This document shows, piece after piece, positions 3,233-61,041 of a stretch of 64,000 bases of DNA. This DNA is from Nitrospirota bacterium (GTDB lineage: Bacteria > Nitrospirota > Thermodesulfovibrionia > Thermodesulfovibrionales > Dissulfurispiraceae). The stretch covers positions 1-64,000 of the forward strand of contig JAMCVZ010000053.1 of NCBI GenBank assembly GCA_023476565.1, in the 5' to 3' direction. Numbering within the stretch: position 1 is the first letter of the stretch; every line of letters begins with the position of its first letter. The translations under genes were made by a program, and so were the position numbers. Under the pieces are notes generated by a model. It worked only from the letters and a program-made list of their open reading frames with translations, was not told the DNA's origin and searched no databases.

Positions 3233-4759
3233 TCATTCTGACCTCCTCTTCTGATTACCTTCCAGTATATATCTCAAAAAAAGCGCCCGTGAAGCGGCAT
3301 ATCTTCCCATCTCGTTATCAGGAGCTACCTTAAGCTGTCTTATGTATTCGTTGTATGCTGAATAGGCATCATGCATCTGCTCATAAGACATCCCCAGCAC
3401 AGCGTGTATCTCGGGGTGCTGCGGCTGCGCTTCCGCGAACGGCTTCAAATACCGGACTGCCTGACTGTAGTCCCCTGTCTTGAAATAACTCATACCCAGG
3501 AAATAATGAGAGAGCACATCCTGCGGAAAAAGCGTGAGGCTGTGCTTCAGGATCCTTATGCTTTCGTTATAGTCCCCTCTCGAATACCGGACAGCTCCCA
3601 ATCCCCGCAATGAAGGCTCATAGGCGCCATCGAGGTTGAGCGCACGGTTAAAGTTACTTTCAGCCCCGGAGTAGTCCTTCTTCTTCAGCAGTATAAAGCC
3701 TTTCAGGGCATAAAAGGGGGGCTGGTCCTGGTTCACGCTTATGGCCTTGGATACGAGGGAGTCGGCCTCTTCGAGATTGTTCTTTTGAAACGCCTGCGCC
3801 GCTTTATCAAAATAACCGGAATAGACCTCGTTGACCTTCTTCAGCCCTGCAATCATGTCCTGGAACCGTTCTCTGTACTTCCCGTCACCCGACACCGGAG
3901 CGGGCGGTGTATTTCTGATTATATGCTCAATCTCCCCGATCCTCACCGATGTCCTGGGATGGGTCGAAAGCAAATCCTCAAAAAGACTCTTTTCATGCGG
4001 GTCCTTGCCCAGCGATTTAAGATATTCCTGCGAGACCCGTTCAAGGTTCCTGTGAGCGCTGACGGCATTCCACGGATCGTACCCGAGCCTTGTCATATAG
4101 AGAACCCCAAGCCTGTCCGCTTCAAGCTCATGGGTCCTGCTGTATTTCAGGAGCACAAGGCTGCCCCCGATTGAACCGAGATTGAGCGCCGCGTCTGAAT
4201 AACTTTTACCGCCGAGGCCGACACCAAGACCTGCCAATCCCACCTGCATCAGCATGGACGAAGTCATCTGCTCAGCAGAATGCCGCGCTGATACATGCCC
4301 CATCTCATGTCCCATAACAAAGGCGAATTCGGCCTCGCTGTCAAGCGCTGCAAGCAATCCCCGCGTGATGACGACATAGCCGGGTATTGCCCATGCATTG
4401 GGAGTCGAGCTGTTCTGGATCGCGAAAGACACGGGAAGGTTGGGCCTGTGGGACACGCCGTGTATCCTGAAAATGATATCTCTTAAATAAGACCTCAGCC
4501 TCTCGTCCCTATACTCACCGCCGCCGCCCTCCGCGCCCCAGAGGGCATTAGGATAAAGCTCCTTCCCCAGCGCCACTTCCTGCGCCTCGGATACGAGCAT
4601 TAACTCCCTCTGCCCGGTTACCGGGTTTATGGCGCAACCCGAAAGCAGCAACGAGTAACAAGCAACGAGCAAACCTGAAAACAGCGACAAGCAACGAGTT
4701 AAAAGTAACGGGTTAAAAACAAAATATTTATTGCGAAAAAAGGAGCTCTTGTCTTTCAT
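3233..4759 (-). CDS. M48-family metalloprotease lipoprotein with TPR repeats (BepA-like)
   Basis: Predicted periplasmic, lipid-anchored zinc protease of outer-membrane quality control. A lipobox LLSGC lies near residue 42. The zinc motif HEMGH is near 151-155 and the third ligand is in HELEADRLG. TPR-like helices follow from about 320 to 490, as in E. coli BepA/YfgC. The ATG at 4759 (MKDKSSFF) with AGG upstream is preferred; an upstream GTG at 4789 would overlap nagA. The hydrophobic core of the signal peptide (NPLLLTRCLSLFSGLL) is encoded by a repeat element also found in nagA and in the lipid kinase gene at 16.5 kb, read there on the opposite strand. Confidence 0.88.
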   Translation of the reverse strand: MKDKSSFFRNKYFVFNPLLLTRCLSLFSGLLVACYSLLLSGCAINPVTGQRELMLVSEAQEVALGKELYPNALWGAEGGGGEYRDERLRSYLRDIIFRIHGVSHRPNLPVSFAIQNSSTPNAWAIPGYVVITRGLLAALDSEAEFAFVMGHEMGHVSARHSAEQMTSSMLMQVGLAGLGVGLGGKSYSDAALNLGSIGGSLVLLKYSRTHELEADRLGVLYMTRLGYDPWNAVSAHRNLERVSQEYLKSLGKDPHEKSLFEDLLSTHPRTSVRIGEIEHIIRNTPPAPVSGDGKYRERFQDMIAGLKKVNEVYSGYFDKAAQAFQKNNLEEADSLVSKAISVNQDQPPFYALKGFILLKKKDYSGAESNFNRALNLDGAYEPSLRGLGAVRYSRGDYNESIRILKHSLTLFPQDVLSHYFLGMSYFKTGDYSQAVRYLKPFAEAQPQHPEIHAVLGMSYEQMHDAYSAYNEYIRQLKVAPDNEMGRYAASRALFLRYILEGNQKRRSE

Positions 4760-4800
4760 ATTTTTACCTGTCATGTTTTTACTTGTCACTCGTTACTGCT
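4644..4800. repeat. GTAACGAG-word inverted repeat, copy spanning the M48 gene start and nagA end
   Basis: On the plus strand the left arm is tandem variants of the word, including AACGAGTAACAAGCAACGAG and GACAAGCAACGAGTTAAAAG. The right arm at 4781-4798 carries ACTCGTTACTG. It encodes the signal peptide of the M48 protease and the last residues of the NagA-like protein. The stretch GACAAGC.ACGAGTTA..AGTAACGGGTTAAAA closely matches the copy at 16524-16618. Confidence 0.75.
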
Positions 4801-5717
4801 TCCATGTATCTTTCAGGATTCTCCGTAATGCACTTCATTACAACATCCCTGTCAAACCCCGCCTCAATGAGCATTACAGAGGCTTCGGAGACCGTCATGC
4901 TGCCTCCCAGGAGACTTCCGTGGATATCGGTTACGCCCTGTCCCTTTGTAAACGGCGTTGTTTCCTTCACGGTATCGGAAATGATAATAATGCGTTCAGC
5001 CTTCTTTGTTTCGAAGATCAGCTCAAGCGTTTTGGGATGCAGGTGATGGGGATCCGCAATAACTTCGATATAGATATCCTTGTTCATAAGCCCGAAGCCC
5101 GCTATGCCGGGCTCCCTGTGGTGGAAACCGCGCATCGCGTTGAAGATATGCGTTATGCCTTTTGCACCTGCATGAAAGCCGGCTTCTGCTTCGGCGTGCG
5201 TTGCGTCCGAATGCCCCATACTGGCGATGATGCCCCTATCGGTTATCTTCCTGATAAGCCCCGGAGCCCCGTTCAGCTCAGGCGCGATGGTGATTATCTT
5301 CACCATATCTTCAAAACCTTCTATAAGCTCTTTCAAGTGGTATTCAGTGGGCTCAAGAAATGTCATCGAGTTCAGGGCGCCGCATTTCGAGAAATTCAGG
5401 AAAGGGCCCTCGAGGTGAACGCCGGCTATAAGTGACGAGTGACGAGTAACGAGTAACGAGTTTTCGGATTCTTTCTTATTCTTTAACTCGTTACTTGTAA
5501 CTTGTAACTTGTTACTGTCTTTCTGGCGTTCCATCGCCTCCCTGACCACTGCCATATTTTCACGCATTACTTTAATGGCAGCAGGATATATGGTGGGGAT
5601 TATTTCCGAAACGCCCTGAGAGCCGTGTATTTCGGCAATCCTGAGTATATGCACGGCATCTGTAGTCCGCGTATCATAGCCGGCAATGCCGTGGGTATGG
5701 ATGTCGATCACCCTCAT
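4779..5717 (-). CDS. nagA: N-acetylglucosamine-6-phosphate deacetylase (NagA-like, short form)
   Basis: Amidohydrolase-family TIM barrel expected to deacetylate GlcNAc-6-phosphate in amino sugar and cell-wall recycling. Motifs are IDIHTHG at the N-terminus, GVHLEGPFLN near 99-108, GHSDATHAEAEAG, THIFNAM and the catalytic-Asp region IIISDTVKE. At 312 aa it is shorter than the usual 380 or so: it begins directly at the barrel HTHG strand and lacks most of the small beta domain. Residues about 66-96 are an insertion (DSNKLQVTSNELKNKK and following) encoded by a repeat element lying between a helix and the HLEGPF strand. Activity is therefore less certain than the family assignment. Neighbouring AmpG and NagZ support a recycling role. 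Confidence 0.85.
   Translation of the reverse strand: MRVIDIHTHGIAGYDTRTTDAVHILRIAEIHGSQGVSEIIPTIYPAAIKVMRENMAVVREAMERQKDSNKLQVTSNELKNKKESENSLLVTRHSSLIAGVHLEGPFLNFSKCGALNSMTFLEPTEYHLKELIEGFEDMVKIITIAPELNGAPGLIRKITDRGIIASMGHSDATHAEAEAGFHAGAKGITHIFNAMRGFHHREPGIAGFGLMNKDIYIEVIADPHHLHPKTLELIFETKKAERIIIISDTVKETTPFTKGQGVTDIHGSLLGGSMTVSEASVMLIEAGFDRDVVMKCITENPERYMEAVTSDK
5431..5518. repeat. GTAACGAG-word inverted repeat inserted in frame in nagA
   Basis: The left arm is four tandem heptamers of the GTGACGA/GTAACGA type, the spacer is about 26 bp, and the right arm is the inverted heptamer series CTCGTTACTTGTAACTTG. The whole 88 bp is read through in the nagA frame. The encoded peptide closely resembles the one produced by the copy at 16524-16618. 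Confidence 0.85.
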
Positions 5718-5773
5718 GGATGTATGATAACACAGAGAATAAGCGTGAAAAAACGCCTCATATCGTGCGTGCA

Positions 5774-5822
5774 GGGAACAGTCCCTATTCTACGACTCCG
5801 TCCGTAAATAGGGACAGTCCCC
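5774..5822 (+). repeat. GGGACAGTCCC-ended palindromic repeat, copy 2 (short form)
   Basis: Short form of the family, with centre CTACGACTCCGTCCGTAAAT. It lies between the divergent starts of nagA and the DUF1460 gene. It keeps an open frame upstream of the DUF1460 start, so an automatic caller may extend that gene through it. Confidence 0.9.
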
Positions 5823-5872
5823 TGGGTTATGCTCAATTTGCCATAGCCGGCTCTAAAAGGGTATCGTATTTT

Positions 5873-6601
5873 ATGGAGCGCGAGACGATCATTTTAGGCG
5901 GATGGACTGAAGATAAGCTGGATCATATCCTCCGCGAAGCGTCCGAAATCCGGGAAGCAGGCGAGCGGATAGACTTTATTTCAAAGCATTTTCTGGGCAT
6001 TGATTACAAGGAATCAACGCTTACCGGCGCTATAAACAGGCGGGAAGAGCTTGTCATGAACCTTGGGGGAATCGATTGCTTTACCTTCATCGATTATGTT
6101 GAGGCCATGCGGCTGTCAGCGTCATTTCCCGAATTCAAAGAGATTTTAAAAAAGGTGCGGTATCGATCAGGAGAGGTCGTCTTTACGAACAGGAATCATT
6201 TCTTTACCGATTGGGCTGAATTCAATTCAGGCTTTGTGCGTGACGTTACCGGACAGCTCGGCGGGCGAAAAGCGGCAACAGCGCACAAGGAACTGAACAA
6301 AAAAGAGGATGGGACATGCTACCTTGAGGGAATCCGGTCCAGGCAGAGGGAGATCGGATATATCCCTTCCGATGCGATTGACAGGTCGGTTGCAGATAAA
6401 ATCAAGACCGGAGATTATATCGGGATTTATTCAATGGCACAGGGCCTTGATGTCTCCCACGCAGGAATTTTCATAAGACATGGTGAAGAAACCTGTCTCA
6501 GGCATGCCTCGTCAGCAAAAGAGCACAGGAAAGTCATCGATCAGGATTTTAAGAGTTACATAGCCGGCAAGCCGGGGATCATCGTATTAAGGCCGGAATA
6601 A
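5873..6601 (+). CDS. DUF1460 N-acetylmuramoyl-L-alanine amidase-like protein
   Basis: Member of the DUF1460 family, papain/NlpC-like proteins thought to act on peptidoglycan fragments. The signature GGIDCFTFIDYVEAM holds the presumed nucleophile Cys. The later DVSHAGIFI segment holds the presumed His, and the protein ends in IIVLRPE. The ATG at 5873 gives 242 aa; the frame extends upstream to 5720, but that extension is encoded by a palindromic repeat. No signal peptide is evident from this start. It converges on ampG with an 8 bp gap. Proximity to AmpG, NagZ and NagA suggests work on muropeptides. Confidence 0.75.
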   Translation: MERETIILGGWTEDKLDHILREASEIREAGERIDFISKHFLGIDYKESTLTGAINRREELVMNLGGIDCFTFIDYVEAMRLSASFPEFKEILKKVRYRSGEVVFTNRNHFFTDWAEFNSGFVRDVTGQLGGRKAATAHKELNKKEDGTCYLEGIRSRQREIGYIPSDAIDRSVADKIKTGDYIGIYSMAQGLDVSHAGIFIRHGEETCLRHASSAKEHRKVIDQDFKSYIAGKPGIIVLRPE

Positions 6602-7860: not shown

Positions 7861-7878
7861 AATATCCTTTTACGTGCA

Positions 7879-7979
7879 GGGGACAGTCCCTATTCTACGA
7901 CTCCGTCCGTAAATAGGGACAGTCCCCTCGACTCCGTCCGTGGTAAACCACCTACTGTTGGTAAATAGGGACAGTCCCC
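7879..7979 (+). repeat. GGGACAGTCCC-ended palindromic repeat, copy 3 (composite)
   Basis: A short form (7879-7927) is joined directly to a second centre plus right end containing the extra hairpin GTGGTAAACCACC, giving three end sequences in one block. It looks like a partial tandem duplication between a short and a long form. It separates ampG from the 80-codon gene. Confidence 0.88.
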
Positions 7980-7987
7980 TTGGTTCT

Positions 7988-11778: not shown

Positions 11779-11798
11779 CTTAAAACAGTAACGAGTTA

Positions 11799-12272
11799 CT
11801 ATCCTTTCGTGAGCGTGCTCTTGAATGCGTTCAGCCACATGATGTGGCTCTTTTCCTCGTTGATGACCTCGTCGACGACATCCTTTTCCTTTACGGCATC
11901 CCTGACACCGTAAAAATAAAGGAGGGTCTCCTTCTCAAATCCAAGCGCATAATTCACCGCATCCGCTGCGGTCTTTATCCCATCCATGGACGGAAGGGAC
12001 TTATTCTTGCCCAGGAAAAATTCCGACTCGACGATGGCCCTCAGGTATTGGGCTATCTCCTCCCATCCGGCAGGCTCGCTGTCGACGATCATATCTTTCA
12101 ATTCAGAGTATGTCTTTTCATGTCTCAATTCCTTTTCGGCAAGTGTGGTGAACAGCTTTGCAAGCCTTTCTTCTTTCCTGAACCTGCCGGCCATAGAGGT
12201 ATAGAACTGGTACCCCAGCCTTTCCGTCTGAACGGCCTGTTCAAGCACCTCTCTGATCGTGAATTTCTCCAT
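11799..12272 (-). CDS. Ferritin-like/rubrerythrin-fold protein
   Basis: A 157 aa four-helix-bundle diiron protein, probably in peroxide or iron handling. Metal-ligand patterns are visible: EQAVQTERLGYQFY, LAEKELRHEKTY, YALGFEKETLLYFY and VINEEKSHIMWL, i.e. two ExxxxxY and two ExxH-type helices. It lacks the C-terminal rubredoxin domain of classic rubrerythrin. The ATG at 12272 has AGGAGG at ideal spacing. The short upstream extension of the frame (MTPALSRGGI) is not needed. Confidence 0.85.
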   Translation of the reverse strand: MEKFTIREVLEQAVQTERLGYQFYTSMAGRFRKEERLAKLFTTLAEKELRHEKTYSELKDMIVDSEPAGWEEIAQYLRAIVESEFFLGKNKSLPSMDGIKTAADAVNYALGFEKETLLYFYGVRDAVKEKDVVDEVINEEKSHIMWLNAFKSTLTKG

Positions 12273-16003: not shown

Positions 16004-16070
16004 AATTCAGATTCCAAATTGCAAAACAGGTCTATCCCTTCAGTTGTTATTTGGAATTTGGGACTCGGAG
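16004..16070. repeat. AT-rich inverted repeat (CCAAATTGC words)
   Basis: GATTCCAAATTGCAAAA and TTATTTGGAATTTGGG face each other across about 30 bp between bioW and the lipid kinase gene. It resembles the TTTTGCA/AATTGC word elements near 1046 and 45160. Confidence 0.45.
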
Positions 16071-16115
16071 TTTATAGTTCTTGCATACAGGCAAGGACTT
16101 CGTGAGGAGCGTGGT

Positions 16116-17177
16116 TTGAAAAACATTGTTCTAATAGGCAATCCCGCGGCAGGCGGCGGGGCGCTTAAAAAAATAGAAAAGGCGGCAAGTATCATCAGGG
16201 ACAAGGGCTTCGATGTCCGGGTTCTGCTCACCGGCAAGAGGGGTGATGCCGAATCCTTTGCCAGGGAGATCGCATCTAATTCCCCCACCTTTAAAAAAGC
16301 GGGGCAGGGGGGGATTCTGGTTATGGCCGCAGGCGGCGACGGCACCTATAATGAGGTGGCTAACGGCCTGATCCATTCGGATGTGCCCATGGCCGTACTG
16401 CCGTTAGGTACCTCTTCTGTACTCGCAAAAGAACTGCGCCTACCCGGAGATATAGATAAAGCTGTGCATATTGCTTTGAACGGCTGCATACAAACTGTGC
16501 ACGTTGGGAAAATAACATTAAAAGACAGTGACAAGCTACGAGTTACGAGTAACGGGTTAAAAGATAAAAAAGACACAGAAGATTTGTCGCCCGTTACCGA
16601 GAATGTTACCCGTTACTTCCTCCTGATGGCAGGCATCGGCTTTGATGCCGAGACCGTTTTCGGTATTAGCGAGAGAATAAAAAAATATACCGGGAAGGCG
16701 GCTTATATACTAAGCGGCATTGAAACAGTCATGAAGTATAATCCTTCACCGCTAACGATAAAAGGATACGGATCACCGGTCGCAAATCATGAGAGCAAGG
16801 GTTCCGGCCCCCTTGCCTTCCGTCCCTCATCTATTGTCCTGACCGGATATACCGCTATTATCGGCAAGGCATCATGTTATGGCGGCAATTTCAAAATCAC
16901 GCCTGATGCCAGTTTGACGGACCCCCATTTTTATGTCTTTGTAACGCACAAAAAGAGCAGATCGTCCCTCATCAAATATGTAGCGGGAATAGTAAAAGGA
17001 TTTCACCTTGGCTTTAAAGATATAAGTTATTTCAGGGCAGCGGAGATTGAAGTGGAAGGGAACGCGCCTATACAGATCGACGGCGATTATGCAGGCGCTG
17101 CTCCGGCCAAAATCGAGATCGCACGGGATGCGCTGAAAATAGTAACCGCCAAAGACCCCTGTATTCAGCAGCTCTGA
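16116..17177 (+). CDS. Diacylglycerol/lipid kinase family protein (YegS/BmrU type)
   Basis: Soluble or membrane-associated kinase of the DAGK catalytic family, phosphorylating a lipid alcohol with ATP. It shows IGNPAAGGGAL at the N-terminus, the nucleotide motif AAGGDGTYNEVANGL near residue 70, and MAVLPLGTSSVLAKEL. FLLMAGIGFDAETVF and IQIDGDYAG follow. TTG at 16116 is chosen because GAGGAG lies six bases upstream; it gives 353 aa. Residues about 137-167 are an insertion beginning DSDKLRVTSNGLKDKK, encoded by a repeat element and sitting just before the conserved YFLLMAGIGFDA strand. The kinase core appears otherwise intact. Confidence 0.87.
   Translation: MKNIVLIGNPAAGGGALKKIEKAASIIRDKGFDVRVLLTGKRGDAESFAREIASNSPTFKKAGQGGILVMAAGGDGTYNEVANGLIHSDVPMAVLPLGTSSVLAKELRLPGDIDKAVHIALNGCIQTVHVGKITLKDSDKLRVTSNGLKDKKDTEDLSPVTENVTRYFLLMAGIGFDAETVFGISERIKKYTGKAAYILSGIETVMKYNPSPLTIKGYGSPVANHESKGSGPLAFRPSSIVLTGYTAIIGKASCYGGNFKITPDASLTDPHFYVFVTHKKSRSSLIKYVAGIVKGFHLGFKDISYFRAAEIEVEGNAPIQIDGDYAGAAPAKIEIARDALKIVTAKDPCIQQL
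16524..16618. repeat. GTAACGAG-word inverted repeat inserted in frame in the lipid kinase gene
   Basis: The arms are GACAAGCTACGAGTTACGAG and CCCGTTACC...GTTACCCGTTAC, with an A-rich spacer between them. The encoded peptide matches the NagA insertion at most positions: DS[ND]KL[QR]VTSN[EG]LK[ND]KK. It is about 95 bp and a multiple of three as inserted. Confidence 0.85.
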
Positions 17178-21293: not shown

Positions 21294-21311
21294 TTCTATC
21301 CTCCCCTACGC

Positions 21312-21392
21312 GGGGACAGTCCCTATTCTACGACTCCGCTTCTGCTTCGTCCGTGGTAAACCACCTACTGTTGGTAAATAGGGACAGTCCCC
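21312..21392 (+). repeat. GGGACAGTCCC-ended palindromic repeat, copy 4 (long form)
   Basis: An 81-bp copy with the additional internal hairpin GTGGTAAACCACC and ACTGTTGGTAAAT before the right end. It lies in the 5' region of porC, downstream of the Crp-family gene. Confidence 0.92.
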
Positions 21393-21498
21393 TGTGTTAT
21401 TTCGTTTATTTCGTTAATGTAAAAGGTAACACTGAATCCACTTAGGATAACTAAAGTTTCCATTGTTTTTCAACAAACCAATGTGTCAATTAGTAAAA

Positions 21499-22200: not shown

Positions 22201-22290
22201 CTCAAAATTGGTTTAATAGTATCAGCATACCATGGCCGGTATATATACAGTAAAGGCCCTCTTGACACTTGCTCCATCCCCACTTGCTCA

Positions 22291-22371
22291 GGGGACAGTC
22301 CCTATTCTACGACTTCGCTGCTGCTTCGTCCGTGGTAAACCACCTACTGTTGGTAAATAGGGACAGTCCCC
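22291..22371 (+). repeat. GGGACAGTCCC-ended palindromic repeat, copy 5 (long form)
   Basis: Nearly identical to copy 4 and in the same orientation, so the two long forms flank the Crp-family gene as direct repeats. It sits between the starts/ends of the Crp-family gene and the REC-PAS-kinase gene. Confidence 0.92.
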
Positions 22372-22384
22372 TGAGTCCCCTGTG

Positions 22385-40070: not shown

Positions 40071-41691
40071 TCACTGCCTCCATAGGGACACCGGGGACAG
40101 TCCCTATTCTACGACTCCGCTTCGCTTCGTCCGTAAATAGGGACAGTCCCCGGCGCGTGTCCCCGGCGCGAGATAAACGTGGTTTTGCAATTTCAATTAT
40201 GTCCACACTCCTTTGCAGATTCCCCAGCGCCTGACCGGCCTTGTTGAAAACCGGCTGAGGATAGAGCCCCAGCCATACGATAACGATGATCATCGCCGCC
40301 ATGATGATCATCTCCCGCCCCCTGAAATCAGGCATGCGCCAGTTGAATGTATTCGGGCCGTGAAAAACACGCTGGATAATCCATAATGCATAGACCGTCG
40401 CCGCAATAAGGCCTACCGCCGCCACCGATGCAGCAGCGATATTCACCCTGAAAGAGCCCAGCAGAACGAGGAATTCTCCTATGAAGTTCCCCAGTCCCGG
40501 CAATCCGAGCGAGGCAAGGGCGAAGAAGAGCGCGACCCCGCCTATCCTCGGAGCCGTTGCCCACAGCCCCCCCATGCGGCCCATTTCACGGGTATGGATG
40601 CGTTCCTGGAGCGCGCCCACCAGTATGAAAAGCGCTCCTGTGGCGACCCCGTGGCAGATTATCTGCATCACCGCACCCTGGAGCGCAGTCTCGTTCCAGG
40701 CAAATATGCCGAGGAGCACAAATCCCATATGGCTGATGCTTGTATACGCTACAAGCCGTTTGAGATCGGTCTGGGCAAAGGCAAGCACAGCTCCGTACAG
40801 TATCCCTATGACAGCCAGCACAAAAGCGATTGGAGCGAACTCAAAAGCCGCGCGGGGGAACAGCGGGATCGTAAAACGCAGCAGGCCGTAAGCCCCTGTT
40901 TTAAGCAGGAGCCCTGCAAGGATTACGCTGCCCGCGGTAGGCGCTTCGGTGTGGGCCTCGGGCAGCCATGTGTGCACCGGCACTACCGGCAGCTTGACGG
41001 CAAAGGCAATGAGGAAGCCCAGCATAAGCCAAAACTCGGTTGCCGGCTGCATGTACGTGCCGAGCAGTTGCAGGTAATCGAACGTATAGACGCCTGTGTT
41101 CCGCGCGTGAATAAAGTACAACCCCAGGATCGCTATCAGCAGCAGCAGGCCGCTGACCTGGGTGAATATGAAAAACTTTACGGCGGCATAGAAGCGGTTC
41201 TCATGTCCCCAGAGCGCAATGAGAAAATACATGGGGATCAGCATCAGCTCCCAGAAAAAGTAGAAGATGAAGAGATCCATGGCCAGGAATACTCCAATGA
41301 TGCCCGCCAGGACCCACATCAGGTTCAAATGAAAAAAACCCACCCTGTCCTGTATCTCGGTCCATGAAGATGCAACGGCGGTAATGCCGAGAAAAACGGT
41401 GAGCAGGACAAGCAGGAGGCTCAGCCCGTCCATCGCAAGGTGGAGGCTTATTCCCAGTTGAGGGACCCAGCTCCGGTCCAGCTCCGCCAGCCACATTGTA
41501 CTGCCCTGCACCAGGTTGCCGGCGGGGGGCAGGACTATTCCGGGCTTGAACCATAAGGCAAGCAGCAATGCAAAATCGAAAGTGAGGGCGATCAACGAAA
41601 TCCATCGCGGCAGCGCCGTATTCAGACGGTCGGAGTACCACGCGATAATGCCGCCCAGAAAGGGTATTATGATAAGCCAGATCAGTATCAT
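40060..41691 (-). CDS. nuoM: NADH-quinone oxidoreductase subunit M
   Basis: Antiporter-like proton-pumping subunit. The conserved Glu lies in WELMLIPMYFLIALWGHENR, and FAVKLPVVPVHTWLPEAHTE, AQTDLKRLVAYTSISHMGF and LPGLGNFIGEFL are typical. ATG 41691 overlaps the nuoL stop by four bases and gives 543 aa, about 30 longer than E. coli NuoM. The last 25 or so residues (SLFTDEAKRSRRIGTVPG and flanks) are encoded by a palindromic repeat inserted at the nuoM/nuoN junction. Confidence 0.95.
   Translation of the reverse strand: MILIWLIIIPFLGGIIAWYSDRLNTALPRWISLIALTFDFALLLALWFKPGIVLPPAGNLVQGSTMWLAELDRSWVPQLGISLHLAMDGLSLLLVLLTVFLGITAVASSWTEIQDRVGFFHLNLMWVLAGIIGVFLAMDLFIFYFFWELMLIPMYFLIALWGHENRFYAAVKFFIFTQVSGLLLLIAILGLYFIHARNTGVYTFDYLQLLGTYMQPATEFWLMLGFLIAFAVKLPVVPVHTWLPEAHTEAPTAGSVILAGLLLKTGAYGLLRFTIPLFPRAAFEFAPIAFVLAVIGILYGAVLAFAQTDLKRLVAYTSISHMGFVLLGIFAWNETALQGAVMQIICHGVATGALFILVGALQERIHTREMGRMGGLWATAPRIGGVALFFALASLGLPGLGNFIGEFLVLLGSFRVNIAAASVAAVGLIAATVYALWIIQRVFHGPNTFNWRMPDFRGREMIIMAAMIIVIVWLGLYPQPVFNKAGQALGNLQRSVDIIEIAKPRLSRAGDTRRGLSLFTDEAKRSRRIGTVPGVPMEAVNGR
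40093..40151 (+). repeat. GGGACAGTCCC-ended palindromic repeat, copy 6 (inside nuoM 3' end)
   Basis: Intermediate-length copy with centre CTACGACTCCGCTTCGCTTCGTCCGTAAAT. It is read through in the nuoM frame and supplies its C-terminal tail, ending just before the nuoN start. An extra GTGTCCCCGG stutter follows the right end. Confidence 0.92.
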
Positions 41692-59338: not shown

Positions 59339-59416
59339 TGGTCGGGGCGATCCGATTCGAACGGACGACCTCTCGCACCCCAAGCGAGTGCGCTATCCAG
59401 GCTGCGCTACGCCCCG
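59339..59416 (-). tRNA. tRNA-Pro (anticodon GGG)
   Basis: A full cloverleaf: 7-bp acceptor stem CGGGGCG/CGCCCCG, anticodon stem CTCGC/GCGAG with loop TTGGGGT (anticodon GGG), T-arm with GTTCGAATC, discriminator A and an encoded CCA. Its 5' half is duplicated at 60995-61041, marking an integration site. Confidence 0.95.
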
Positions 59417-59419
59417 AAA
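59373..59419. other. attachment site copy within tRNA-Pro
   Basis: A 47-bp block from the anticodon stem to three bases beyond the tRNA 5' end. It is repeated exactly and in the same orientation at 60995-61041. The integrase fragment reads into it and takes its stop codon from it (GGGGCGTAG). Confidence 0.85.
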
Positions 59420-60994: not shown

Positions 60995-61041
60995 TCGCAC
61001 CCCAAGCGAGTGCGCTATCCAGGCTGCGCTACGCCCCGAAA
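60995..61041. other. Second attachment site: orphan 5' half of tRNA-Pro
   Basis: Exact 47-bp copy of 59373-59419. It lacks the variable loop, T-arm and 3' acceptor strand, so it cannot make a tRNA. It overlaps the last codons of merR (HHFGA then stop), where the integrase fragment at the other end reads SSFGA then stop. Confidence 0.85.

Follow-up and report, generated by a model that had tools for sequence, protein, structure and literature searches.

The window analysed here, a stretch of 64,000 nucleotides from a Nitrospirota genome (G000, 2.67 Mb), carries on its minus strand the nagA gene followed by that of an M48 metalloprotease, and a palindrome made of 7-nt repeats (heptads) spans the region from the NagA core to the lipobox of the protease. 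The features of this locus, together with other copies of the element in the window, are the following:

5425 to 5515, minus strand: complete element, in frame inside nagA (DSNKLQVTSNELKNKKESENSLLVTRHSSL)
4779 to 5717, minus strand: nagA, N-acetylglucosamine-6-phosphate deacetylase (TIGR00221, 2.7e-51, below the curated family cut-off)
4776 to 4803, minus strand: opposite palindrome arm, comprising the nagA end (MEAVTSDK plus stop) and the GTG of the M48 ORF
4684 to 4711, plus strand: further heptad arm, whose coding strand gives NPLLLTRCLSL
4641 to 4668, plus strand: heptad arm, whose coding strand gives the hydrophobic core LLVACYSLL
4637 to 4759, minus strand: putative lipoprotein signal peptide MKDKSSFFRNKYFVFNPLLLTRCLSLFSGLLVACYSLLLSG, followed by the lipobox Cys codon at 4634 to 4636
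3233 to 4789, minus strand: ORF of the M48 metalloprotease with TPR repeats (Pfam Peptidase_M48, 8.9e-33, and TPR); GTG 4789 gives the longest ORF; ATG codons at 4774 and 4759 are alternative starts, an AGG standing 7 nt ahead of the one at 4759
11788 to 11800, minus strand: decayed arm just ahead of the probable RsmI start, read as IVTRYCFK
16528 to 16562, plus strand: element copy in a diacylglycerol/YegS-like lipid kinase gene (16044 to 17174), between its two Pfam domains (DSDKLRVTSNGLK)

The N-terminal region of the M48 ORF reads ...FVFNPLLLTRCLSLFSGLLVACYSLLLSGC-AINPVTG, and the DNA encoding the leader (4637 to 4789, minus strand) consists of degenerate GTNACNA heptads. The lipobox is LSGC after LFSGLLVACYSLL, with K and R upstream, as in a predicted lipoprotein signal; counted from ATG 4759, the putative signal peptide is long, with 41 residues ahead of the Cys, and its best 12-residue hydropathy is 2.25. 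An earlier note had taken this leader for an opposite-strand reading of the element, which was borne out, as the arms at 4641 to 4668 and 4684 to 4711 encode it. The stretch quoted in that note is derived from the element too, but represents only the upstream half of the leader, the core adjoining the lipobox, LLVACYSLLLSG, coming from a second arm (4641 to 4668). The proposal that the element supplies the export signal of a lipoprotein is supported at the level of the sequence, where heptad arms encode the putative leader. The presence of a Met close behind the lipobox (QRELM) could point to a true start downstream of the element, with the leader left untranslated; such a start would delete the lipobox Cys, which was found along with a hydrophobic stretch in 23 out of 23 orthologues examined, and is scarcely credible.

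These orthologues were taken for leader analysis from 27 matches in 26 genomes, leaving out G029 and the second G058 fragment as partial, and G039 and G051 for an identity of 35% or less. One TAG was present inside the match from G001 (L032). By the M48 protein, the nearest named relatives are metagenome-assembled Nitrospirota such as SKS1.bin28, whose protein is identical to that of G001, a member of the same genus as G000. The comparison of orthologues left the claim on the leader standing: in six genomes (G006, G012, G014, G018, G021 and G040) the M48 leaders are ordinary, short and unrelated, while the lipobox and the mature protein are kept. The leader of G013 (...LLITSYSLLSGC) is similar as a protein, but its 7-nt periodicity was not significant (p = 0.15), so the M48 residues just ahead of the Cys may predate the element.

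On the other side of the junction, the arm at 4776 to 4803 provides the last codons and the stop of nagA, in agreement with the earlier proposal that the element supplies the end of this gene. A nagA match was found in 47 of the 60 genomes searched. The complete copy within NagA sits between a helix and the strand that bears the HLEGPF motif; it was disordered (pLDDT under 50 at residues 70-91) in an AF2 model based on a shallow set of 6 sequences (mean pLDDT 68). At the RNA level, a hairpin of -56.7 kcal/mol (z -5.6) was predicted across the junction (4636 to 4806). A general start-site hairpin found no support, as among 12 M48 leaders folded, in 150-nt windows that clip the left arm of long leaders, only that of G026 (z -2.5) was clearly beyond the shuffles. 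In Rfam searches over the nagA palindrome, the matches were limited to plant microRNA models, with scores far under the gathering thresholds, and were taken as chance.

The element is about 90 bp long. Typical copies start with AAAGACAGTAACAAG and contain a left arm of three or four GTNACNA heptads, a short A-rich spacer and a right arm of inverted heptads, and their single open reading frame gives DSNKLQVTSNELKDKKESENSLLVTRYSSL. The arms are inverted with tips such as AAAGACAGTAAC, that is, they have the terminal inverted repeats of a MITE. A degenerate 19-mer detected 100 + 76 = 176 arm matches in the G000 genome, compared to 0 + 0 for the reversed control; in the window, five matches on the plus strand and two on the minus strand were found, vs. 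0-1 per shuffle in 10 dinucleotide shuffles. Chance heptads were rejected on the basis of both controls. A stricter arm pattern was too specific and gave no matches, and GTAACGAG alone occurred 5 times vs. 1.07 expected. The minus-strand reading of the lipid kinase copy is FNPLLVTRSLSLSF, just as first described, and the strand of the gene itself reads SDKLRVTSNGLK.

The window also contains a second dispersed family, based on GGGGACAGTCCCTATTCTACGACT and GGGACAGTCCCC and which we take to be REP-like, at 205-255, 5773-5823, 7873-7984, 21311-21397, 22290-22376 and 40092-40151, one of the copies being located in the first part of an AmiA-like ORF (5720 to 6601). A perfect 47-nt direct repeat is found at 59373-59419 and 60995-61041.

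The relation of the element to genes was analysed in 93 copies, a sample biased in that the G000 copies came from exact-arm-match regions and those of G001 from the first 100 of 221 matches; 66 copies overlapped predicted genes (34/49 in G000 and 32/44 in G001) and 27 were outside them. Copies in L013 that repeated those of L011 had been dropped, reducing the clusters from 52 to 49. Frame was scored in gene-overlapping copies with a recognised left tip, and all 36 internal or N-terminal ones had the same frame, a uniformity that is partly the result of survival, as stop-free copies alone can persist in genes; two gene-end copies were read in another frame. The open frame was kept in 10 of the 15 full-length copies of the G000/G001 sample classed as intergenic (the AhpC-like ORF was tallied as genic in one count and its element as intergenic in this one). 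When 20 ORFs carrying the element were scanned, Pfam domains were detected in 19, the hosts including XerC/D, RecN, alanine racemase, chorismate synthase, uracil-DNA glycosylase, GlnD and LptD, as well as the CbiA/GATase_3 ORF of L099. Copies in loops or linkers were found in NagA, MnmA, RecN, AroC and others, many of them deep inside the enzymes.

Could the element be a non-coding structure (a terminator, an array for binding of a regulator or an RNA hairpin) placed at gene junctions, with translation of the leader as incidental read-through? The palindromic nature of the copies, the 27 of 93 outside predicted genes and the strong folding of the nagA-M48 junction (z -5.6) would fit this idea. 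Furthermore, the available text of PMC2700814 describes in Geobacter metallireducens similar arrays of four or five heptanucleotides, some as inverted pairs, in both intergenic and intragenic positions, and calls them putative sites of a global regulator; their units, GGGACCG and MTYCTGA, are read there as regulatory sites, and the text describes no coding role for them. A non-coding role is improbable given that 66 of the 93 copies lie in or overlap genes in one frame, many far inside enzymes, that the leader DNA retains a conserved lipobox, and that the hairpin is not a general feature of M48 leaders. Probably, the M48 leader derives from a protein-coding palindromic element, one copy of which straddles the nagA-M48 junction.

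When G000 and G001 were compared, an AddB copy of G000 was absent from the alignable site of G001, whereas a second AddB site and the sites in MnmA, LeuS and XerD were common to both genomes, with different interiors. The two AddB-like copies of L102 (3228-3299 and 3498-3569) are near-identical, lie in one gene and one of them is absent from G001, which suggests recent local spread or conversion. In chorismate synthase, the element occupies different loops in the two genomes, and nested copies are present in G001. At the loop used by the element in G001, the chorismate synthase of G000 (L204) has another heptad repeat, GTTCACG, coding FTVHGS. The distribution of the element is patchy: including G000, at least one exact arm match was found in 15 of the 60 genomes of the relatives search and in 63 of 395 genomes of the phylum, some of them only at control level. 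No clear target-site duplication was detected at one AddB copy exclusive to G000 when compared with the empty G001 site, nor did the analysis find a mobiliser. Matches to Y1 transposases were highest in G000 and G001 (9 and 13, respectively) among the 60 genomes searched, and these high counts may be tied to the GGGGACAGTCCCTATTCTACGACT/GGGACAGTCCCC family; as sole mobilisers of the element, Y1 transposases are unsupported, since G003 has 82 arm matches and zero Y1.

The M48 leader is not the only one concerned. In G000, the element was detected in the leaders of M48, LptE, LptD, a SurA-like protein, an AhpC/TSA-like protein and a small protein without Pfam match, and in G001 in those of M48, LptE and two more lipobox proteins. 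It was also present in pseudopilin-like leaders before GFTLLE/GYTLLE, namely in L097 of G000 and in four cases in G001, three of them in L154 and one in L168. In several exported proteins, it is apparently the right half of the element that now serves as the export signal.

Heptads in leaders were scored as 7-nt periodicity (lag 7) over the 60 nt ahead of the lipobox Cys, compared with codon shuffles. For LptE, with 30 loci of which those of G008, G013 and G022 were left out for lack of a clear lipobox, p <= 0.005 was reached in 11 of 27 leaders, and mean identity was 0.41 and 0.40 at lags 7 and 14, compared to 0.29-0.34 at the remaining lags. For M48, p <= 0.01 was reached in 4 of 23 leaders (G000, G001, G026 and G030), with G005 weaker; that of G000 showed a lag-7 identity of 0.58 and p = 0.0005, the floor of the test. 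The M48 mean at lag 7 (0.35) was not above that at lag 3 (0.355), so the M48 signal rests on those four genomes. The heptad unit varies by genus, being TTTACTG in G017, TTCACTG in G026 and CTCGTTA in G041. Chance convergence was considered, in which T-rich signal peptides rich in Leu and Val would yield coincidental heptads: codons for Leu, Phe and Val are common to hydrophobic leaders, and some low-complexity leaders (e.g. LptE of G010) were significant at lag 7 with no clear unit. Nevertheless, none of 142 control windows from four membrane-protein genes reached p <= 0.01, compared to the 11 of 27 LptE leaders at the stricter threshold, the lag of 7 is no multiple of codon length, and the leader units belong to a family dispersed through G000 and G001, making such a convergence very improbable.

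A more serious question is whether the heptad leaders are ancestral, i.e. inherited and then homogenised instead of inserted within their own genus. Heptad leaders built on other units in the M48 genes of G026, G030 and, more weakly, G005, as well as in LptE across many genera, together with the common spacer type of neighbouring G001 copies, are consistent with this. In the M48 tree, the heptad leaders occupy two clades. Against ancestry, none is present in G002, sister to G000 plus G001, which requires a minimum of one loss or two gains. Ancestry is rather unlikely, though the least unlikely of the alternatives considered here.

Leader and internal copies differ in the Arg codon of the arm. 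Internal copies have CGT in 27 cases and TGT in 1, whereas among the 10 codons counted in leader copies, a small number, 6 were TGT and 4 Arg (Fisher p = 4.8e-4, or 3.1e-3 with orthologues counted once). In three of the 10 scored leaders, those of LptD and of the L157 and L166 lipoproteins, the counted stretch had the Arg codon alone, and no codon could be counted in the SurA-like leader. Replacement of Arg by Cys raises the hydropathy of the arm peptide from 1.23 to 2.58; over 12 residues, the element leaders reached 1.87-2.66, lower than the 2.91-3.46 of the ordinary leaders compared.

Several steps can be read directly from the genomes compared: a dispersed family, a single frame, genomes with and without a copy at alignable sites, and 7-nt-periodic leaders in two conserved lipoproteins. 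To this we would add that, with one open frame, copies could survive in genes wherever 25-30 extra residues are tolerated, namely in loops, in linkers between domains, at the ends of genes and in N-terminal leaders. The T-rich right arm would be translated into a moderately hydrophobic peptide, which upon loss of the Arg (CGT to TGT) could become hydrophobic enough for the core of a Sec/lipoprotein signal, so that an insertion tolerated at first would later have taken over export.

The best-known protein-coding palindromes are those of intracellular Rickettsiales. According to the available sections of PMC2229807, PMC10969869 and PMC2996958, the Rickettsia palindromic elements (RPE) and their Wolbachia equivalents are short dispersed palindromes, in frame in unrelated conserved genes and translated as a conserved peptide that is tolerated in unstructured parts. 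The Nitrospirota element is likewise a short palindrome in many copies with inverted arms (176 arm matches), in one frame in unrelated conserved genes (36/36 tips; Pfam in 19/20 ORFs). Unlike RPE, its host lineage is apparently free-living, judging from the sources of the metagenome-assembled genomes, its arms are degenerate 7-nt tandem repeats, and several copies make up secretion leaders. By analogy, it resembles a Rickettsia-type protein-coding palindrome in the way it would work, with some copies co-opted as putative signal peptides. Co-option of a mobile repeat into a predicted signal peptide was also proposed for Yersinia YPAL/RU-2 (YPO1552), as far as described in the available text of PMC2229807; that case concerns a single lineage-specific exported protein, whereas the Nitrospirota element offers several separate cases in conserved lipoproteins and periplasmic proteins, and M48 and LptE have orthologues without the repeat. 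The palindromic amphipathic repeat coding elements (PARCEL) are also palindromic protein-coding repeats, but, from the portion of PMC2996958 available, they form tandem amphipathic repeats, in contrast to the single in-frame inserts or leaders of the Nitrospirota element. No report of this heptad element was found among the papers listed by searches of the open-access literature.

Tentatively, and with rather less confidence than for the M48 leader itself, the Nitrospirota heptad palindromes may constitute recurring raw material for new secretion signals, the same lipoprotein leader (LptE and partly M48) being rewritten independently by the own unit of each lineage (CTCGTTA, TTCACTG, TTTACTG, CTTCTTG), with a single CGT to TGT transition that would be enough to make an export signal of an insert tolerated in a loop. 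A heavy load of such palindromes outside the Rickettsiales would make it harder to regard them as a peculiarity of reduced genomes. Moreover, their repeated use as leaders would provide a natural replicated series on the origin of signal peptides from non-functional DNA, within which the Arg-bearing and Cys-bearing arms would represent intermediates.
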